DNA of 41,294 nucleotides from Lentisphaerota bacterium (GTDB lineage Bacteria; Verrucomicrobiota; Lentisphaeria; Victivallales; Victivallaceae). Below the pieces are notes generated by a model, which had not been told where the DNA came from, ran no database searches, and saw only the letters and a list, made by a program, of their open reading frames with translations. Below, piece after piece: positions 2,821-9,965 of this stretch (position 1 is its first letter; the number at the start of each line of letters is the position of its first letter). Made by a program: the position numbers and the translations under genes. The stretch covers positions 1-41,294 of the forward strand of contig SUVU01000006.1 of the NCBI GenBank assembly GCA_015061865.1, given 5' to 3'.

Positions 2821-3435
2821 ATGAAAAAACATGGCAATCTGATTGTGATTTCCGGCCCCAGCGGGGTGGGCAAATCCACTTTGATCAAACGTGTCCGGGA
2901 AAATTTGACGGACTTGCAGTTTTCGGTATCGTGTACGACCCGGTCGCCCCGGCAGGGTGAAATTGACGGCAAAGACTACTTTTTTTTGAGTGACAGTGAA
3001 TTTGCCGCCCATCTGGCGGCGGGGGATTTTCTGGAGCATGCGCAGGTTTTCAAACACAGTTACGGTACGCTGCGCAGTGAAGTAAGTTCCCGGATCAGCC
3101 GCGGCGAGGAGGTGGTGCTGGATATTGACGTGCAGGGGGCGAAACAGATCCGTCAGGCGATGGAAAACGACCCGCTGATCGCGGCGGCGGCTCAATTTAT
3201 CATCATTGCGCCGCCGGATCTGGAAACGTTGAAAAACCGGCTCTGCAACCGCAATTCTGAAACTCCGGAGCAATTGCAGCTGCGTCTGGACGGTGCCGTC
3301 AATGAGTTGAAAAATTTCCGGGTGTACGATTATTTGATCGTCAACGGCGATCTGGATACTGCGGCGGCGGAATTGACCGGAGTGCTGAAATCCATTCGTT
3401 TGCGAACCAGAAATATTGTCGGAGAACTGTTTTAA
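2821..3435 (+). CDS. gmk: Guanylate kinase
   Basis: The enzyme phosphorylates GMP to GDP with ATP in purine nucleotide synthesis. The 204-residue protein opens with the P-loop SGPSGVGKS (11-19), followed by the GMP-binding region CTTRSPRQGEIDGKDYFF and the DIDVQGAKQ segment of the family, and has normal length. I chose the ATG at 2821, with AGGA at 2810-2813 seven bases upstream, over an in-frame TTG at 2815. The stop overlaps the next start as TAATG, so gmk and coaC should be translationally coupled. In many bacteria rpoZ lies between gmk and coaBC. Here it is absent from the junction. Confidence 0.97.
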   Translation: MKKHGNLIVISGPSGVGKSTLIKRVRENLTDLQFSVSCTTRSPRQGEIDGKDYFFLSDSEFAAHLAAGDFLEHAQVFKHSYGTLRSEVSSRISRGEEVVLDIDVQGAKQIRQAMENDPLIAAAAQFIIIAPPDLETLKNRLCNRNSETPEQLQLRLDGAVNELKNFRVYDYLIVNGDLDTAAAELTGVLKSIRLRTRNIVGELF

Positions 3436-3974
3436 TGAGTGCAGAAAAGCTGATCGTATTGGGGGTCACCGGGGGGATCGCCGCCTATAAAGCGGCAGAT
3501 TTGTGCAGCAAACTTGCCAAAAACTTTGCCGTGCAAGTAATTATGACCGAAAACGCCTGCCGTTTCGTCACACCGCTGACTTTCCGGACGCTTTCCCGGC
3601 GCCCGGTGGTCACTTCGCTGTGGGAGAGCGACGGCGAATGGCGTCCCCGCCACGTCGATCTGGCCGCTGAAGCGGCGCTTTTGGTCGTGGCTCCGGCGAC
3701 GGCAAATTTCCTTGCCAAAGCCGCCTGGGGGATCGCCGATGATGCGTTGAGTACTTTTTATGCGGCGTACAACGGCAAAACTCTGCTCGCTCCGGCGATG
3801 AATCCGCAAATGTGGGCGCACGAAGCCTGCATCAACAATGTCAATATCCTCCGGGAGCGCGGTGTGGAGTTTGCCGGACCGGCATCCGGTCATGTCGCCT
3901 GCGGTGCCGACGGCACCGGCAGAATGTGTGAAGTCAGCGAAATTTACGCCGCTATTACCGCATTGATGCCGTGA
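3435..3974 (+). CDS. coaC: Phosphopantothenoylcysteine decarboxylase (stand-alone CoaC domain)
   Basis: This FMN flavoprotein decarboxylates 4'-phosphopantothenoylcysteine to 4'-phosphopantetheine in coenzyme A synthesis. The 179-residue product matches only the N-terminal half of the usual bifunctional CoaBC (Dfp). Key features are GVTGGIAAYK near the N-terminus, the active-site His73 in RHVDLA, the PAMNPQMW motif with Asn123, and Cys156 in GHVACG. The CoaB ligase half is not fused and is not in this window. The gene is coupled to gmk by a TAATG overlap and converges on the lipoprotein gene with only three bases between the stops. There is no room for a dedicated terminator. Confidence 0.93.
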   Translation: MSAEKLIVLGVTGGIAAYKAADLCSKLAKNFAVQVIMTENACRFVTPLTFRTLSRRPVVTSLWESDGEWRPRHVDLAAEAALLVVAPATANFLAKAAWGIADDALSTFYAAYNGKTLLAPAMNPQMWAHEACINNVNILRERGVEFAGPASGHVACGADGTGRMCEVSEIYAAITALMP

Positions 3975-3977
3975 AGT

Positions 3978-4355
3978 TCACCGGGGGACCCGGATCGAGC
4001 GCACCTGTCTGCCGCCGTCAATAATGTCCACGACCCATTCGGTATCAGTATAATATGAATAAAGCTGCCACCGGGAATTGCGGTCGCTGGTAAGTCCGGT
4101 GATTTTGGCACATTCCTGCAGTACATTGGCGATTTCCAGCCGGCTGGCATTATCGGAACGGCACTGCATCGCCGTTCCGGGGGCGGTTTGCAACAGTGCG
4201 GCAGTCAATTCGGTGATCATCCGTTCCCGTTTTTCCTCCGGGGTCAGCGGAATTCTGCCGGTGTTATCCGTAATATTTCCCACTGGCGGCTCCCCCGGCG
4301 GCAAACATCCGGCGGCACCGCACAACAGCAGAATCAGGAGCAGATATTTTTTCAT
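3978..4355 (-). CDS. Small predicted lipoprotein at the end of the ExbBD cluster
   Basis: The 125-residue product begins with a short charged N-terminus, a leucine-rich hydrophobic core and a lipobox GAAG|C with Cys17, so it should be acylated and anchored in the envelope. The mature part starts with a Pro/Gly-rich linker, has a helical middle (EKRERMITELTAALLQ) and a C-terminal beta-rich stretch (WQLYSYYTDTEWVVDII). I do not recognise a family. The ATG at 4355 was chosen over a longer frame because the leader begins exactly there and a GGGAGAGGGAAA ribosome site precedes it. It overlaps the zinc-ribbon gene as ATGA, which ties it to the upstream ExbB/ExbD/TonB-like genes. Confidence 0.75.
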   Translation of the reverse strand: MKKYLLLILLLCGAAGCLPPGEPPVGNITDNTGRIPLTPEEKRERMITELTAALLQTAPGTAMQCRSDNASRLEIANVLQECAKITGLTSDRNSRWQLYSYYTDTEWVVDIIDGGRQVRSIRVPR

Positions 4356-4624
4356 TTTCCCTCTCCCGGACGCCCGGAATCCAGCAGCAGATCTGACCGG
4401 CGCCGGATGCAGACCGTGTTGCATTTGGGGCAGCGGCACAAACTTACCGGTGAACGCGGCACAAATGAGTGGTAACAATTATTGCAGTGAAACAATCTGC
4501 TGTGGCTGACCTGCCAGGCGTTGCGCCGCCGCCGTGCCGAAGCCCGCAGCCAGAGCAGCAGCAGATAAAGCAGCAATATCGCCAGCAGTAAAAAGAAAAA
4601 TTCGGAAAAACTGATCGGGATCAC
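4352..4624 (-). CDS. Small membrane protein with cytoplasmic-type zinc ribbon
   Basis: The 90-residue product has one strong transmembrane segment (about 7-27), an Arg-rich stop-transfer stretch (ARRRR), and then two Cys pairs, CNNC (47-50) and CPKC (65-68), spaced as a zinc ribbon. The positive-inside rule puts the ribbon in the cytoplasm. The start is GTG at 4624, overlapping the TonB-like stop as GTGA, with GGGAGG upstream. It overlaps the lipoprotein gene by four bases. Position suggests an accessory or regulatory part of the envelope complex. I know of no described ExbBD partner of this form, and no function is assigned. Confidence 0.7.
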   Translation of the reverse strand: MIPISFSEFFFLLLAILLLYLLLLWLRASARRRRNAWQVSHSRLFHCNNCYHSFVPRSPVSLCRCPKCNTVCIRRRSDLLLDSGRPGEGK

Positions 4625-5313
4625 TTTTTCACCTCCCGGCTCTCTTTATTGCTCCAAATCACCGTATATACCCCCTCCGGATCGCCCCGGCGCACCAATT
4701 CCCTGCCGCAGGCGGCATCCAGCGCCGCAGTGCCGCAGGAGCGCATCACCCGGAACATCGTCACGCTGCCGCGCCGGTAAATATGGATGACTGAATCAGC
4801 GGCGGGAGCTGTTTGGGGTGTCGATTTCGCCAGTGCCGGCAAATTTATCACCTGTCCCTGCGGCGTGATCGCCACTGTGGTCGTCGGACTCTTTTTCACC
4901 GGTGCAGACGTTTGCGGCATCACCCCCAGGCGGGGCGCAACCGGGAAATCATGTCCGGTGAGCGCTTTGCCGGGATGGAGCTGTACCGCCGGTAATCTGT
5001 CCGGCGCCACCGCTGTGACGGCAAATCCCGCCCGCCGGTCACGCTCCGGCAGAGTATCAGAATCCCGCTTGCCGGAACCGTAAATTTGAGACGGATCACG
5101 CAAATCCAGCTGCCGGAAAAATTCCCGGTTGTGTTCGACGTGAACCACGCTCAATACCGTATTCTGCTTTTTCTGATCCGGAGTGCGGTAGTGGTATTCA
5201 AAGGCAAAAAACACCACCGCCAATATCACAATCACCACTGCCGCTGCCTGAAGCACCGGAACAGTGTTGCGTTGACGCTGATGCTGTTTTAAGATCGCCT
5301 GTAACTTAGTCAA
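4621..5313 (-). CDS. TonB-like periplasm-spanning protein (predicted)
   Basis: The 230-residue product has a basic cytoplasmic N-terminus, one transmembrane helix (about 20-39), a long Pro/Thr/Ala-rich middle and a small C-terminal domain (about 174-221). The segment FRVMRSCGTAALDAA resembles the TonB C-terminal pattern V.V..SSG...LD.AA. With exbB and exbD directly upstream, a force-transducing TonB-like role is the best inference, although the C-domain is short and divergent. The start is TTG at 5313 after GGGAG. It overlaps the exbD stop by eight bases. A TolA-like or unrelated scaffold is an alternative. Confidence 0.55.
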   Translation of the reverse strand: MTKLQAILKQHQRQRNTVPVLQAAAVVIVILAVVFFAFEYHYRTPDQKKQNTVLSVVHVEHNREFFRQLDLRDPSQIYGSGKRDSDTLPERDRRAGFAVTAVAPDRLPAVQLHPGKALTGHDFPVAPRLGVMPQTSAPVKKSPTTTVAITPQGQVINLPALAKSTPQTAPAADSVIHIYRRGSVTMFRVMRSCGTAALDAACGRELVRRGDPEGVYTVIWSNKESREVKK

Positions 5314-5773
5314 AACGTCGCTCCCGTCCGGCTTCCAGCGGCTGTACGGCGATGAAACTGGACATTTCCGCCGCTTCAGCGATCGCCATGATCCGACTCA
5401 ATGTTCCGGCAGAAATCGCCTGATCGGCACGGATGACCAGCACTTTTTCGCTTTTGGAAGCGAGCAATTCGTTGCGGAACTGGTTTTCATCTTTCATCAG
5501 CCGGTCACGGTAATAAATTTTGCACTGCCCGCCCGGAGTATCCGGCGCAGTGACCGAAACGATCGCTCTGCCCAGATCGGCAGCCTGCGGGACTTCCGCT
5601 TGGGGCAGATTGACTTTGATCCCGGAGATCCTCACCACCGAACTTGCTACCAGAATAAAAAACAGCAGCAGAAAAAACAGGTCGACCAGTGCCGCCGTCT
5701 GCAACAGACCGGTGCGCTGTTTCAACCGGGTACGGTAGCGGCGGGAACCCAGATGACGGAGTCCGGCAGTCAT
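5306..5773 (-). CDS. exbD: ExbD/TolR family biopolymer transport protein
   Basis: This is an inner-membrane subunit of the proton-driven ExbB-ExbD motor. The 155-residue product has a cytoplasmic N-terminus rich in Arg, one transmembrane helix (about 27-47) carrying the essential Asp in ALVDLFFLLLFFILVASS, and a periplasmic domain containing the family signature VLVIRADQAISAGTLSRIM. It overlaps exbB upstream as ATGA and the TonB-like gene downstream by eight bases. ExbD versus TolR cannot be decided from this sequence. The family assignment is secure. Confidence 0.92.
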   Translation of the reverse strand: MTAGLRHLGSRRYRTRLKQRTGLLQTAALVDLFFLLLFFILVASSVVRISGIKVNLPQAEVPQAADLGRAIVSVTAPDTPGGQCKIYYRDRLMKDENQFRNELLASKSEKVLVIRADQAISAGTLSRIMAIAEAAEMSSFIAVQPLEAGRERRFD

Positions 5774-6405
5774 TGCTGCTCCTCCTCTGACATCTGGTTT
5801 TGACGTTCAAAAAATCCGGTCAGTTCCAAAGCGGCTTTTTCCATATCCAGCGTAATGGATTCCACCCGGTCGATCAGGTAATTGCAGCCGATGTGGCAGG
5901 GAATGGCGACGGTCAGACCCGCTGCCGTGGTCAGCAGTGCCCGGGCAAGCGGGGTGCCGATGGCGCTGACCGAGAAGTATTCGCTGGCCTGGATCGCTTC
6001 AAAAGCACTCAGCATCCCCAGCACCGTGCCGAGCAAGCCCAGCAGCGGCAGAATGGTCGAGAGCGTGGAGAGCAGGGAAATGTGCCGTTCCAGTTTGGGC
6101 AATTCCTCCAGTGCGGCATCGTCGATCGCCGCCCGGATATTGGCATCGCCGCGCTGATGGGCGAGGATGCCGGCGCTGAGCAGTTTTGCCACCGGGCCGG
6201 GGGTGTTGTCGCAGAGGGTCAGCGCTTCAACGATGCCGTTCCGCTGCAAGACATTGAATAACCCGCGCAGCAATTCCCGGACGCTGATCTCGTCCCGGTG
6301 AAACTGAAAAACTTTGGTCAGAAAAATAAACAGCGCCAACACCGAACAGACCAGAATAACCCACATCACCGGCCCGCCGGCATTCATCAATTTCATAAAA
6401 AACAT
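5770..6405 (-). CDS. exbB: ExbB/TolQ/MotA family proton channel subunit
   Basis: This inner-membrane protein forms the pentameric motor around ExbD and uses the proton gradient. The 211-residue product has three hydrophobic segments (about 12-33, 115-140, 158-180). The conserved core LSTLSTILPLLGLLGTVLGMLSAF and the third-helix segment ALLTTAAGLTVAIPC are clear family hallmarks. The ATG follows GGAG and lies two bases after the TPR gene stop. It overlaps exbD by four bases. The TPR-ExbB-ExbD-TonB-like order recalls Tol-Pal or TonB gene clusters with a periplasmic TPR partner. Confidence 0.93.
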   Translation of the reverse strand: MFFMKLMNAGGPVMWVILVCSVLALFIFLTKVFQFHRDEISVRELLRGLFNVLQRNGIVEALTLCDNTPGPVAKLLSAGILAHQRGDANIRAAIDDAALEELPKLERHISLLSTLSTILPLLGLLGTVLGMLSAFEAIQASEYFSVSAIGTPLARALLTTAAGLTVAIPCHIGCNYLIDRVESITLDMEKAALELTGFFERQNQMSEEEQQ

Positions 6406-6407
6406 AC

Positions 6408-8864
6408 TTATTTTCTCCGTATTTTATCCAGTTGTTCCCGGAATTTTTTCTGCATCCCGTCCTGTTTCAGTCCGAGGTATTCCAATTGTCTGATCATCCG
6501 CATCCCCCGCTGCAATGCTCCGGGGGTGCGGTGGCGCACCAGCAGTTCCAGTGCGGTTTCGGTGCCGCGGATGCACCATTGCGCTTCCGGAGTCACCCCG
6601 GCGGCGGCGATCGCCCGTGCCGCATAAAGCAGTTTCTCAAAGGCGCTCACTGCCGCATTGAAGTTCCCCGCCCACTCATGGCACAAACCGAGTTTGTAAA
6701 ATGCCTGCAGCCGGATCTGGGGATATTTGGTATTGACGGCGAGCTGTTCACAGCGGGCGGTGGTTTCGGCAAGCACTTCCGGCGCCGGTGAAACGCCCTG
6801 GATCAGATCGCAATCCACCGCCCGGATGATGGCGATATCAGCCAGCAGCGTTTCCGGGTCGAGTTTTGCGGCGAGCAGAAACATCGCCCGTGCCTGCGGG
6901 TATTCACTGCGGCGGAAAAGTATTTCTCCGGCGTGCAGTGCGCCCTCGGCGGCGATGATCGCAGATTTATTATTGCTGGTCAAGCCGGAAAATATGGTCA
7001 ATGCCTGATCGGTTTTACCGTTTTTATCCAGAAACACCGCTTTTTGCAGGGCGATTTCCAGACCGGCGACGGAATCGGTGAAATTTTTTTCCAGTTTTTC
7101 CAGATCGGTGATCGCTCCGGCGATATTTTCATTGCCGGTGTGATTCAGCACATAATACGCCCATGCTTCGCTTTTGGAGTACTTGGTGCGGAACAATGTT
7201 GCGGCTTTTTCTTTCAACTCCGGATTATCGGTGGAGTGCAATATTTCCAGCGCCAGATAGAGCGCATGGGGCGTCAATGCCGATTTTTCATGCGCCACGG
7301 CGAAATCGACAAACTCTTTTGCCGCTTCATCGTCAAAATTATCCCGGTACGCCATCAGCGCCGCCAGAAATTGGGCGTTTTCCTGATTTTTGCACTTTTT
7401 CACCCGGGCGGCATCCAGATAATATTTTCTGGCAGCGGCAAATTCACCGCGCTGTTCCAATGCTTTTGCCAGCAGAAATCTGGCATCCGCCTGAAACTGC
7501 ATATTGGCGGATTTGCTGAGCAATTCCGCCTCTTTAAGCAGATTTTTTTCATCGCCGGTGCGCTGAAAGAAATTCATAAGCTCAAAATGGATCTTTTCCC
7601 TGCCAACAGCAGGAGTGACCTGCAGCGCCGCCCGGTACTCCCGCAGCGCTCCGTCAAAATCCTTTTGCTCCTCCAGAAATCCGGCGAAACGGCAGTGCCA
7701 CAAACCCTTTTCGGCGGCATGCAGAGAATTATGACAGAGAAAGAGATACAACTCCGACAAATCAGCAGCTTTCTGCAATTTGACGGCGGCACTGATCGCA
7801 TCGGAAGCCGCTTCCAGCCGATCGGCAAGCGGAAAGAACGAATTCAATGCCGCTTCGGTGAAAATTTCCACCGCCTGCCACACCATCGCCGGTCTGGTAA
7901 GCAGTTTCCTGCCGACGAAATTGAAAACTTCGCCGCGATCAGAGGCCTGGGGGAAGTTTTTGGCGTATTTGCGGGCTTCAGCTGCCGCCAGTTCCGGGAA
8001 GTGGTCGGCATAAATTCTGATAAGCTGCCGGTGCAGCCCCCTGCCGATCTCCTCTTTGGGGGAGAAATCCAATGCGGCACGCAAACATTTGACCGCAAAG
8101 GCGAAATCACCGTTTTTCTCCGCTGTTTTCGCCGCCGCCGCCAGCAATTCCAGCAGTCTGATGTGCGGATGTACCGGTTGGGATTCGATAAATTTGTCGA
8201 AATCCTCTTTCAGCTTTGCCGTTTTACCGGCATACGCTTCGACCAGATAAAGTTCCACCGCCCACACGCCGTTCTGCTGTTCTTTGGGGATGGATTTGAG
8301 AAATTTTTCCGCTTCGCTGTTTTTACCGGCACGGATCAGGATATAGAGCGCTTCGATCCGCGCCTCTGCCGCCCATTCAGATTTGCCGGCGGCAAGTTCC
8401 GCAAACAAACGGTATGCCCCGTCAAGATCGCCGGAACGCAGTTTCAGCATCCCCCGGCTGAAATTCACCGCCGGCAGTGACGCCGGATCCCCGGCTGCCA
8501 CGGCGGCAAATATCTGTTCCGCTGCGGCAAATTTGCCCTCCGCCACCAGCAGATCACCCGGCAGGGTCCCTGCCGAACGCAGCGGATGGCGGCGGCGGAA
8601 TTCCGCCAGCACTTTTTTGGCATTGTTCAAATCCCCGGCACGCAAATATGTCCGGCACAGTTTCAATGCACTCTGCGCCCATCCTTCAGCATCCCGGAGC
8701 TTATCCGCCTGCAGCATGGCGTTGTGATAGCCGCCGATGGCGTTGGAGTAATCTCCAGCCGCCAGTGCGGTATCCGCAAGTTTCTGTTCCGGCTGCTCAC
8801 CGGCATAAAGCACCGGAAGCGCCAGCACCGTTGCGGCGAATATGTTACGCAAAAACGATTTCAC
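6408..8864 (-). CDS. Secreted tetratricopeptide-repeat protein
   Basis: The 818-residue product starts with a signal peptide (MKSFLRNIFAATVLALPVLYA, cleaved near residue 21). It is then made almost entirely of TPR-like helical hairpins, recognisable from repeated patterns such as AGDYSNAIGGYHNAM, GEFAAARKYYLDAA, RRSEYPQARAMFLLA and AGNFNAAVSAFEKLL. It should be a periplasmic or outer-membrane-associated scaffold. The start is GTG at 8864 with GGA eight bases upstream. It lies 30 bases after recA and two bases before exbB, so it is probably the periplasmic partner of the ExbB/ExbD/TonB-like complex, similar in position to YbgF/CpoB in Tol systems. It is much larger than CpoB. Confidence 0.8.
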   Translation of the reverse strand: MKSFLRNIFAATVLALPVLYAGEQPEQKLADTALAAGDYSNAIGGYHNAMLQADKLRDAEGWAQSALKLCRTYLRAGDLNNAKKVLAEFRRRHPLRSAGTLPGDLLVAEGKFAAAEQIFAAVAAGDPASLPAVNFSRGMLKLRSGDLDGAYRLFAELAAGKSEWAAEARIEALYILIRAGKNSEAEKFLKSIPKEQQNGVWAVELYLVEAYAGKTAKLKEDFDKFIESQPVHPHIRLLELLAAAAKTAEKNGDFAFAVKCLRAALDFSPKEEIGRGLHRQLIRIYADHFPELAAAEARKYAKNFPQASDRGEVFNFVGRKLLTRPAMVWQAVEIFTEAALNSFFPLADRLEAASDAISAAVKLQKAADLSELYLFLCHNSLHAAEKGLWHCRFAGFLEEQKDFDGALREYRAALQVTPAVGREKIHFELMNFFQRTGDEKNLLKEAELLSKSANMQFQADARFLLAKALEQRGEFAAARKYYLDAARVKKCKNQENAQFLAALMAYRDNFDDEAAKEFVDFAVAHEKSALTPHALYLALEILHSTDNPELKEKAATLFRTKYSKSEAWAYYVLNHTGNENIAGAITDLEKLEKNFTDSVAGLEIALQKAVFLDKNGKTDQALTIFSGLTSNNKSAIIAAEGALHAGEILFRRSEYPQARAMFLLAAKLDPETLLADIAIIRAVDCDLIQGVSPAPEVLAETTARCEQLAVNTKYPQIRLQAFYKLGLCHEWAGNFNAAVSAFEKLLYAARAIAAAGVTPEAQWCIRGTETALELLVRHRTPGALQRGMRMIRQLEYLGLKQDGMQKKFREQLDKIRRK

Positions 8865-8894: not shown

Positions 8895-9965
8895 TCAATT
8901 TTCCGGAGCAGCTGCGGCATCCGCAGTTTCGGCTTTGCGGGGAGCAGCGGCAGCTTTTTCGGCGGCGATTTTTTCTTTGATCCTGGCATCGATTTTCTGC
9001 TGCAGTTCCGGATCGCCGGCCAGAATGGCTTTGGTCTGATCTCTGCCCTGACCGAGCTGTTCGCCGTCAAAGCTGAACCACGAACCGCGTTTTTCCACGA
9101 TGCCCATATCAGTAGCGACATCGAGAATGGAACCGGTTTTGCTGATGCCTTCGTTATACATGATGTCAAATTCAGCGACTTTGAACGGCGGCGCCATTTT
9201 GTTTTTGATGACTTTGACCCGGGCCCGGTTGCCGGTGACGGCATCGCCGACTTTGATCGCCGTGGATTTGCGGATGTCCATGCGGATGGAGGCGTAGAAT
9301 TTCAACGCATTACCGCCGGGGGTGGTTTCCGGATTGCCGTACATCACGCCGATTTTTTCGCGGATCTGGTTGGTGAAAATCACGCAGGTTTTGCTTTTGC
9401 TCGCCGCACCGGTAAGTTTACGCAGTGCCTGCGACATCAGACGTGCCTGCAGACCGACGTGGGAATCGCCCATCTGCCCCTCGATCTCGGCACGGGGAAC
9501 CAGCGCCGCCACCGAATCCACGACCAGCACATCCAGAGAATTACTGCGGATCAGCGTGTCGGCAATATTGAGCGCATCTTCACCGCAATCGGGCTGACTG
9601 ACCACGAGTTTGTCCACATCCACGCCGATTTTCTGGGCGTAAACCGGATCAAGTGCGTGTTCCACGTCGATGATCGCAGCATTGCCGCCGGCGGCCTGGG
9701 CGTTGGCGATAACGTGCAGACAGAGAGTGGTCTTACCGCTGGACTCCGGTCCGAAAATTTCCACGATCCTGCCTTTGGGCAGACCGTAAATACCCAATGC
9801 GATATCCAGTGACATGCTGCCGGTGCTGATGACCGGCACGTCGCTGACGGCGGCATCGGCGCCCAGACGCATGATGGTGCCTTTGCCGAATTCTTTTTCG
9901 ATCTGCTGGATCGCCAGCAAGAGACTTTTTTCTTTATCAACGGCGATGATATCTTTTTCTGCCAT
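8895..9965 (-). CDS. recA: Recombinase A
   Basis: RecA forms ATP-dependent filaments on single-stranded DNA for strand exchange and the SOS response. The 356-residue product contains the Walker A motif GPESSGKTT (72-80), the [20 protein letters not shown] loop 2 region and the conserved core throughout. The C-terminal tail is Ala/Lys-rich and ends in acidic PEN. The ATG follows AGGAG and sits 24 bases after gyrB, with no promoter or recognisable SOS operator in the gap. It therefore appears to be transcribed from the gyrB promoter, an unusual arrangement for recA. Confidence 0.98.

Follow-up and report, generated by a model that had tools for sequence, protein, structure and literature searches.

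The six genes at positions 3978 to 8864 of contig SUVU01000006.1 of a Lentisphaerota bacterium (assembly GCA_015061865.1, positions 1 to 41,294, the whole stretch of 41,294 nucleotides being called the window hereafter) may encode a Tol-like tether between the two membranes, of a type belonging to the Planctomycetes-Verrucomicrobia-Chlamydiae (PVC) clade and including a cytosolic zinc-ribbon subunit, a reading that we favour while giving it slightly less than an even chance. It starts from the gene order, the protein families, the predicted TonB/TolA and LpoB-like folds, the conserved cysteines and the fact that domains of receptors, TolB_N and class A penicillin-binding proteins (PBPs) are missing. 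The conserved order gyrB-recA-TPR-ExbB-ExbD-TonB-like-ribbon (TPR, tetratricopeptide repeat) is in agreement with it, as are an ExbB nearest to TolQ, the lack of a receptor plug domain in all 12 genomes scanned and the lack of the ribbon in all 19 genomes searched outside the clade.

We propose that this operon would build a Tol/Ton-type envelope-spanning machine of the PVC clade and Hydrogenedentota, in which an ExbB pentamer would enclose an ExbD dimer in the inner membrane, and a TolA/TonB-like rod, anchored beside the motor, would span the periplasm and contact a partner located at the wall or at the outer membrane. The exported TPR protein and the lipoprotein of predicted LpoB-like fold, a fold similar to that half of TolB which binds TolA, would be the likely partners of the rod. 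Such a machine would tether or tension the outer membrane, the opening of nutrient receptors being no part of its function. The ribbon, with its single helix and a putative zinc knuckle in the cytosol, would dock on the ExbB/ExbD base as a regulator or an adaptor, connecting this base with a signal or a partner in the cytosol. That the cluster represents a third kind of ExbBD machine, confined to PVC bacteria and Hydrogenedentota, with the ribbon as its cytosolic regulator and a proton-driven step that is optional, is a bolder proposal that we consider rather unlikely.

Gene layout of the cluster

The six genes and their conserved neighbour are the following:

6408..8864, minus strand: exported TPR-repeat protein, GTG start, 818 aa, signal-like stretch at the N-terminus
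5770..6405, minus strand: ExbB/TolQ-family pore protein, 211 aa
5306..5773, minus strand: ExbD/TolR-family protein, 155 aa, membrane aspartate D31 kept
4621..5313, minus strand: TolA/TonB-like force transducer, TTG start, 230 aa
4352..4624, minus strand: membrane zinc ribbon (predicted), GTG start, 90 aa, N-terminal transmembrane (TM) helix, basic stretch and CxxC-x14-CxxC
3978..4355, minus strand: lipoprotein, ATG start, 125 aa, lipobox Cys17, predicted LpoB-like domain at 39-125
8895..9965, minus strand: recA, directly upstream of the TPR gene, conserved neighbour

All six open reading frames (ORFs) were confirmed on the minus strand, packed as the first-pass annotation had described, the junctions from the TPR gene through ExbB, ExbD, the TonB-like gene and the ribbon to the lipoprotein being a gap of 2 bases followed by overlaps of 4, 8, 4 and 4 bases. 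Since only 30 bases lie between the end of recA and the TPR start, with gyrB in turn ahead of recA, the unit probably extends beyond the six genes. The named relatives place the window in the Lentisphaeria, near Victivallis: the best named ExbB match, at 78% identity, comes from the metagenome-assembled genome SIG89, and the ExbB of Victivallis vadensis DSM 14823 is 63% identical. The window assembly amounts to 2.35 Mb and is 76% complete.

Motor proteins and force transducer

The family assignment of ExbB and ExbD is certain. ExbB matches Pfam MotA_ExbB (MotA/TolQ/ExbB, PF01618) at 2.5e-27, with 95.6 bits for a gathering cut-off of 22.9, and its closest solved structures are those of TolQ (1.3e-20), ahead of ExbB (4.6e-14), while ExbD matches ExbD/TolR (PF02472) at 3.9e-13, with 50 bits for a cut-off of 25.4. 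The TPR protein is recognized by Pfam TPR_19 (E 2.9e-15) and TPR_14 (1e-11), and by the NCBIfam YbgF/CpoB model at 7e-11, yet under the family cut-off; as a query against the genome contigs it gave no match, whereas the ExbB profile did retrieve loci.

The force transducer is built of one TM helix, a disordered linker and a C-domain at approximately 145-225. Alone, the window protein scored under every Pfam and NCBIfam cut-off, and member-wise scans of its relatives gave weak matches to TonB_2 (3/23) and tonB_Cterm (3/23). The family profile (A4, 31 relatives) matches solved TonB C-domains with E values of 3.9e-5 and 4.3e-5. In addition, the predicted C-domain, with a predicted local distance difference test score (pLDDT) of approximately 95 over residues 171-220, has TolA domain III (Z 5.1), the TonB C-terminal domain (5.1) and again TolA-III (4.8) as its three best matches among 832 aligned chains, the next one scoring 3.5. 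Foldseek alone returned no significant match for this model, and none in the viral library either. By profile and by predicted fold, the C-domain is of the TonB/TolA type, the check that had been proposed for this protein; together with the scores of ExbB and ExbD above the Pfam cut-offs, this bears out the resemblance to Tol/Ton systems that had first been noticed.

Repeated loss of the ExbD aspartate

The pore threonine of ExbB, Thr127, is a threonine in 168/168 aligned rows, and the proton-binding membrane aspartate, called essential in MotB/ExbD/TolR in a passage of PMC12204202, is present in the window ExbD (D31). Among the relatives, this aspartate is replaced by N, S, G, T or C in 56/157 rows from the fetched loci and in 45/111 ribbon-bearing loci. 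A quick ExbB tree with several long branches (117 rows, 72 with D and 45 with another residue at this position) requires a minimum of 20 changes, and in all 45 Asp-less rows the helix is devoid of any other acidic residue. The control consisted of 45 ExbD matches, from other clusters of the same genomes and from ExbB loci mostly outside the clade, of which six belonging to the cluster were removed; the aspartate was found in 39/39. The histidine expected in the TM helix of the transducer is present in 64/94 relatives, by a crude count that takes the most hydrophobic 21 residues, includes a few over-extended ORFs and skips two. The loci with an ExbD carrying Asn, Ser, Gly, Thr or Cys include L027, L037, L039, L040, L046, L050 and L053, among others.

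Because the aspartate is lost repeatedly and the TM histidine is absent from the window transducer and several close relatives, this cluster seems able to do without the proton step; to judge from its residues, the window copy may still be driven. The at least 20 changes and the lack of any substitute acid, with the ExbB threonine and often the transducer histidine kept, would point to a regulated tether or to another power source. The energy-transducing role suggested at first is compatible with the ExbB and ExbD residues of the window, but many relatives have lost the key aspartate. ExbB/ExbD motors are understood as proton machines owing to the single membrane aspartate of ExbD, and a clade of ExbBD motors, located beside gyrB-recA in Lentisphaeria, that repeatedly drops it would be a natural test of a motor without proton flow.

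Distribution of the membrane zinc ribbon

The ribbon had been regarded as a non-standard part, but it is standard in the cluster of this clade. Searched as a 90-aa query, it was found in 54/60 relatives, 29/29 near-complete genomes and 23/23 genera. In the order-level sample (41 loci, namely the window and 40 fetched from the 53 further relatives with a ribbon match), the ribbon is directly preceded by ExbB and ExbD in 38/39 loci with enough sequence, the TPR gene is upstream in 35/37 testable loci and RecA in 31/34, as scored with gene-order hidden Markov models built from these same loci. Within the window's genus, all six genes are found in identical order; such an arrangement is not accidental.

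Two CxxC pairs are present in 124/124 members of the family, and zinc binding is predicted for this double-CxxC ribbon. Since the charge is more positive after the TM helix than before it in 105/124 members, the positive-inside rule would place the ribbon in the cytosol. No curated family in Pfam or NCBIfam recognized it above cut-off, and member-wise scans brought up no more than isolated weak matches to zinc-ribbon and rubredoxin-like families, along with the PqiA family in 8/22. A literature search for a zinc ribbon with ExbB/ExbD or TolQ/TolR returned nothing relevant; regulatory input through such a ribbon, conserved and cytosolic, would be new for Tol/Ton systems within the literature searched.

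Across the phylum, the ribbon profile matched 149/288 genomes, a tally that is rough both ways, as it includes weak matches inside long ORFs and as four of the negatives (G064, G066, G078 and G088) do carry a double-CxxC membrane ribbon in the cluster of ExbD. In 40 phylum loci sampled outside the order, ExbB is upstream of the ribbon in 24 of the 39 with room. The ribbon was also seen in 43 of 80 named loci, among them Verrucomicrobia, Hydrogenedentota, one Kiritimatiellae and one Chlamydiae record; these loci were selected by ExbB, and its presence beside the ribbon there partly follows from the selection. The whole genomes behind 35 of the 80 loci showed the ribbon in 10/15 inside those groups, one being a weak match, and in 0/19 labelled outside them, though these hold a related ExbB; the one UBP18 genome searched had no ribbon. 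The idea of a lineage-specific oddity is ruled out by this recurrence in Verrucomicrobia, Kiritimatiellae, Hydrogenedentota and Chlamydiae, together with the count among the 60 relatives.

Some variants were observed. The ribbon is duplicated in tandem in one relative (G036, L044:9743-10203), and in Hydrogenedentota (L087, L093 and L100), as well as in record L103, it carries a long basic C-terminal tail absent in the other groups. The gene guaA is directly downstream of the ribbon in L035, L036, L039, L059, L173, L181 and others, also where ExbBD is missing from the locus.

Predicted fold and linkage of the lipoprotein

The model of the lipoprotein (pLDDT 87.7) has LpoB as the top three of 998 chains (Z 9.4, 8.3 and 7.8), the next unrelated row scoring 6.5; the best LpoB row, 4q6z, aligns with Z 9.4 and a root-mean-square deviation of 2.3 over 86 residues. 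Its predicted fold is LpoB-like. TolB was not among the structural rows for this model in the 998 chains, which excludes nothing, and the LpoB domain is described in a passage of PMC7267771 as resembling the TolB N-domain. Sequence scans, including Pfam and NCBIfam, gave nothing useful above cut-off.

The lipoprotein, first taken as unique, was found in 58/78 family genomes. It adjoins the ribbon in 34 of the 48 genomes having coordinates for both. The conservation of gene order that had been anticipated is thus observed for all six genes in the genus and for the first five across the order, but less strictly for the sixth; as to the last two genes being absent or unlinked in relatives, the ribbon is linked and the lipoprotein is in part unlinked. 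Next to the cluster, a CoaBC-type gene (3435-3974, plus strand, 179 aa), in which the flavoprotein (CoaC) domain was seen and the CoaB part was not searched, ends 3 bases from the lipoprotein stop.

Receptors, TolB, Pal and PBPs in the genomes

Domain absences were scored with Pfam profiles in 12 Lentisphaeria genomes including that of the window, the control genomes being positive each time. The plug of TonB-dependent receptors (PF07715) was found in 0/12, with positive E. coli, Caulobacter and Bacteroides controls, and the same 0/12 was obtained for TolB_N and for the Transgly (GT51) domain of class A PBPs. One clear Pal/OmpA was identified in each of the 12 genomes, on another contig in the case of the window's genome; neither TolB nor Pal is encoded with the motor in the window cluster. 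The window's genome shows two transpeptidase matches only, and a passage of PMC8406291 reports class A PBP loss for several PVC bacteria. The subject has a bearing on the attachment of the outer membrane to the wall in PVC bacteria, some of which lack class A PBPs or TolB.

Contig C158 of the window's genome carries a second TolQ-TolR-TonB_2 set (L251:5320-8581), so that the window operon is an additional machine. In this second set, a TolQ-like, a TolR-like and a Pro/Lys-rich TonB_2 protein are followed by a 348-aa lipoprotein without Pfam match.

Alternative explanations

Several hypotheses could account for these data. The cluster could be the clade's own Tol-Pal system in split form, with the TPR protein as CpoB, ExbBD as TolQR, the transducer as TolA, Pal encoded elsewhere and the ribbon as a local accessory. 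The TolQ-like ExbB, the single Pal/OmpA of each genome and the existence elsewhere of split tol-pal loci, mentioned in a passage of PMC12204202, are in agreement with this explanation, while the second TolQ-TolR-TonB_2 set, the absence of TolB_N and the repeated loss of the ExbD aspartate speak against it, and we regard it as unlikely, though worth serious attention. We give somewhat less weight to the ribbon and the lipoprotein being hitchhikers on a real unit TPR-ExbB-ExbD-TonB, the function of the ribbon lying elsewhere, for example with guaA or with transcription/translation genes. Lone ribbons near rpoA-rplQ genes (names read from the sequences, no scan) and the unlinked lipoproteins would fit such hitchhiking, as would guaA, which follows the ribbon in 9/15 ExbB-less loci and in 11/35 order loci. 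The presence of guaA after the ribbon in these order loci suggests that the lone ribbons are true orthologues which stayed next to guaA. Against hitchhiking stand ExbB/ExbD directly upstream in nearly all order loci and the ribbon beside ExbBD also in Hydrogenedentota, in a Chlamydiae record and in the four genomes that the phylum search had counted as negative.

A relay of Tol, CpoB and LpoB tuning a class A PBP would be suggested by TPR, TolQRA-like and LpoB-like parts in one operon and by E. coli, where a passage of PMC4458516 has the PBP1B-LpoB and Tol machines coordinated by CpoB. With no Transgly domain in the 12 genomes and only the two transpeptidase matches in that of the window, it is very improbable, and activation of PBP1B by LpoB was dropped; a SEDS (shape, elongation, division and sporulation) or class B synthase replacing PBP1B would rescue it. 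The least probable of all is a Ton system for nutrient uptake. It had been put forward initially and has the TonB-type C-domain of the transducer in its favour, but it was abandoned given the missing receptor plug in the 12 genomes scanned, and it would be revived by a family of receptors too divergent for PF07715.

The Tol-like tether with a zinc-ribbon subunit, which we prefer, also has observations standing against it. Concerning the motor, the TM helix of the window transducer has no histidine (SHLS-type motor contact), as in several close relatives; the aspartate lost in 45/117 tree rows means that a force driven by proton flow cannot be a general rule; and the second TolQ-TolR-TonB set could be the true Tol system. 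Concerning the two additional parts, the LpoB likeness is structural only, Foldseek giving no E <= 0.001 for the lipoprotein model and the family profile (A5) no relevant match, and the lipoprotein is unlinked to the ribbon in 14/48 genomes. The association of the ribbon itself with ExbBD is not absolute, no ExbB being upstream in 15 of the 39 testable phylum-sample loci, with guaA immediately downstream in most of these.

Comparison with known systems

With Tol-Pal (TolQ-TolR-TolA-TolB-Pal-CpoB), the window cluster shares a TolQ-like pore, a TolR-like partner, a C-domain of predicted TolA/TonB fold and a TPR protein in one operon. It differs by having neither TolB_N nor Pal, by the added membrane zinc ribbon and LpoB-like lipoprotein, by the frequent loss of the ExbD aspartate in its relatives and by the second TolQRA-like set in the genome. 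The motor families and the TonB-type C-domain are shared with Ton (ExbB-ExbD-TonB), but not the receptor plug, missing in the 12 genomes scanned. In the closest published survey of force transducers (PMC12204202), passages on PVC bacteria describe TPR-tolQ-tolR pairs with von Willebrand factor A (vWA) transducers, and its main text does not mention zinc. These clusters have in common with the window a TPR gene, a tolQ-like gene, tolR-like genes and a single-TM transducer, but according to the same passages they combine a vWA C-domain with two tolR-like genes, whereas the window cluster has one ExbD and a TonB/TolA-type domain.

The lipoprotein with its LpoB-like predicted domain recalls LpoB, the outer-membrane activator of PBP1B, but the 12 genomes scanned lack the class A PBP domain. 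Its linker after the lipobox is presumably shorter than that of E. coli LpoB. The ribbon gave a sequence match of E 0.36, not significant, against the zinc finger 7zok of Myxococcus AgmX/GltJ. We take AgmX to be the same protein as GltJ and to have a motor role, its finger being, as we understand it, part of a large TonB-domain protein, unlike the separate 90-aa ribbon. On this understanding, a cytosolic zinc ribbon on a trans-envelope motor of TolQR/TonB type would be common to both, and Myxococcus AgmX/GltJ may serve, by analogy, as a precedent, being an envelope motor of a related kind with a zinc finger attached.

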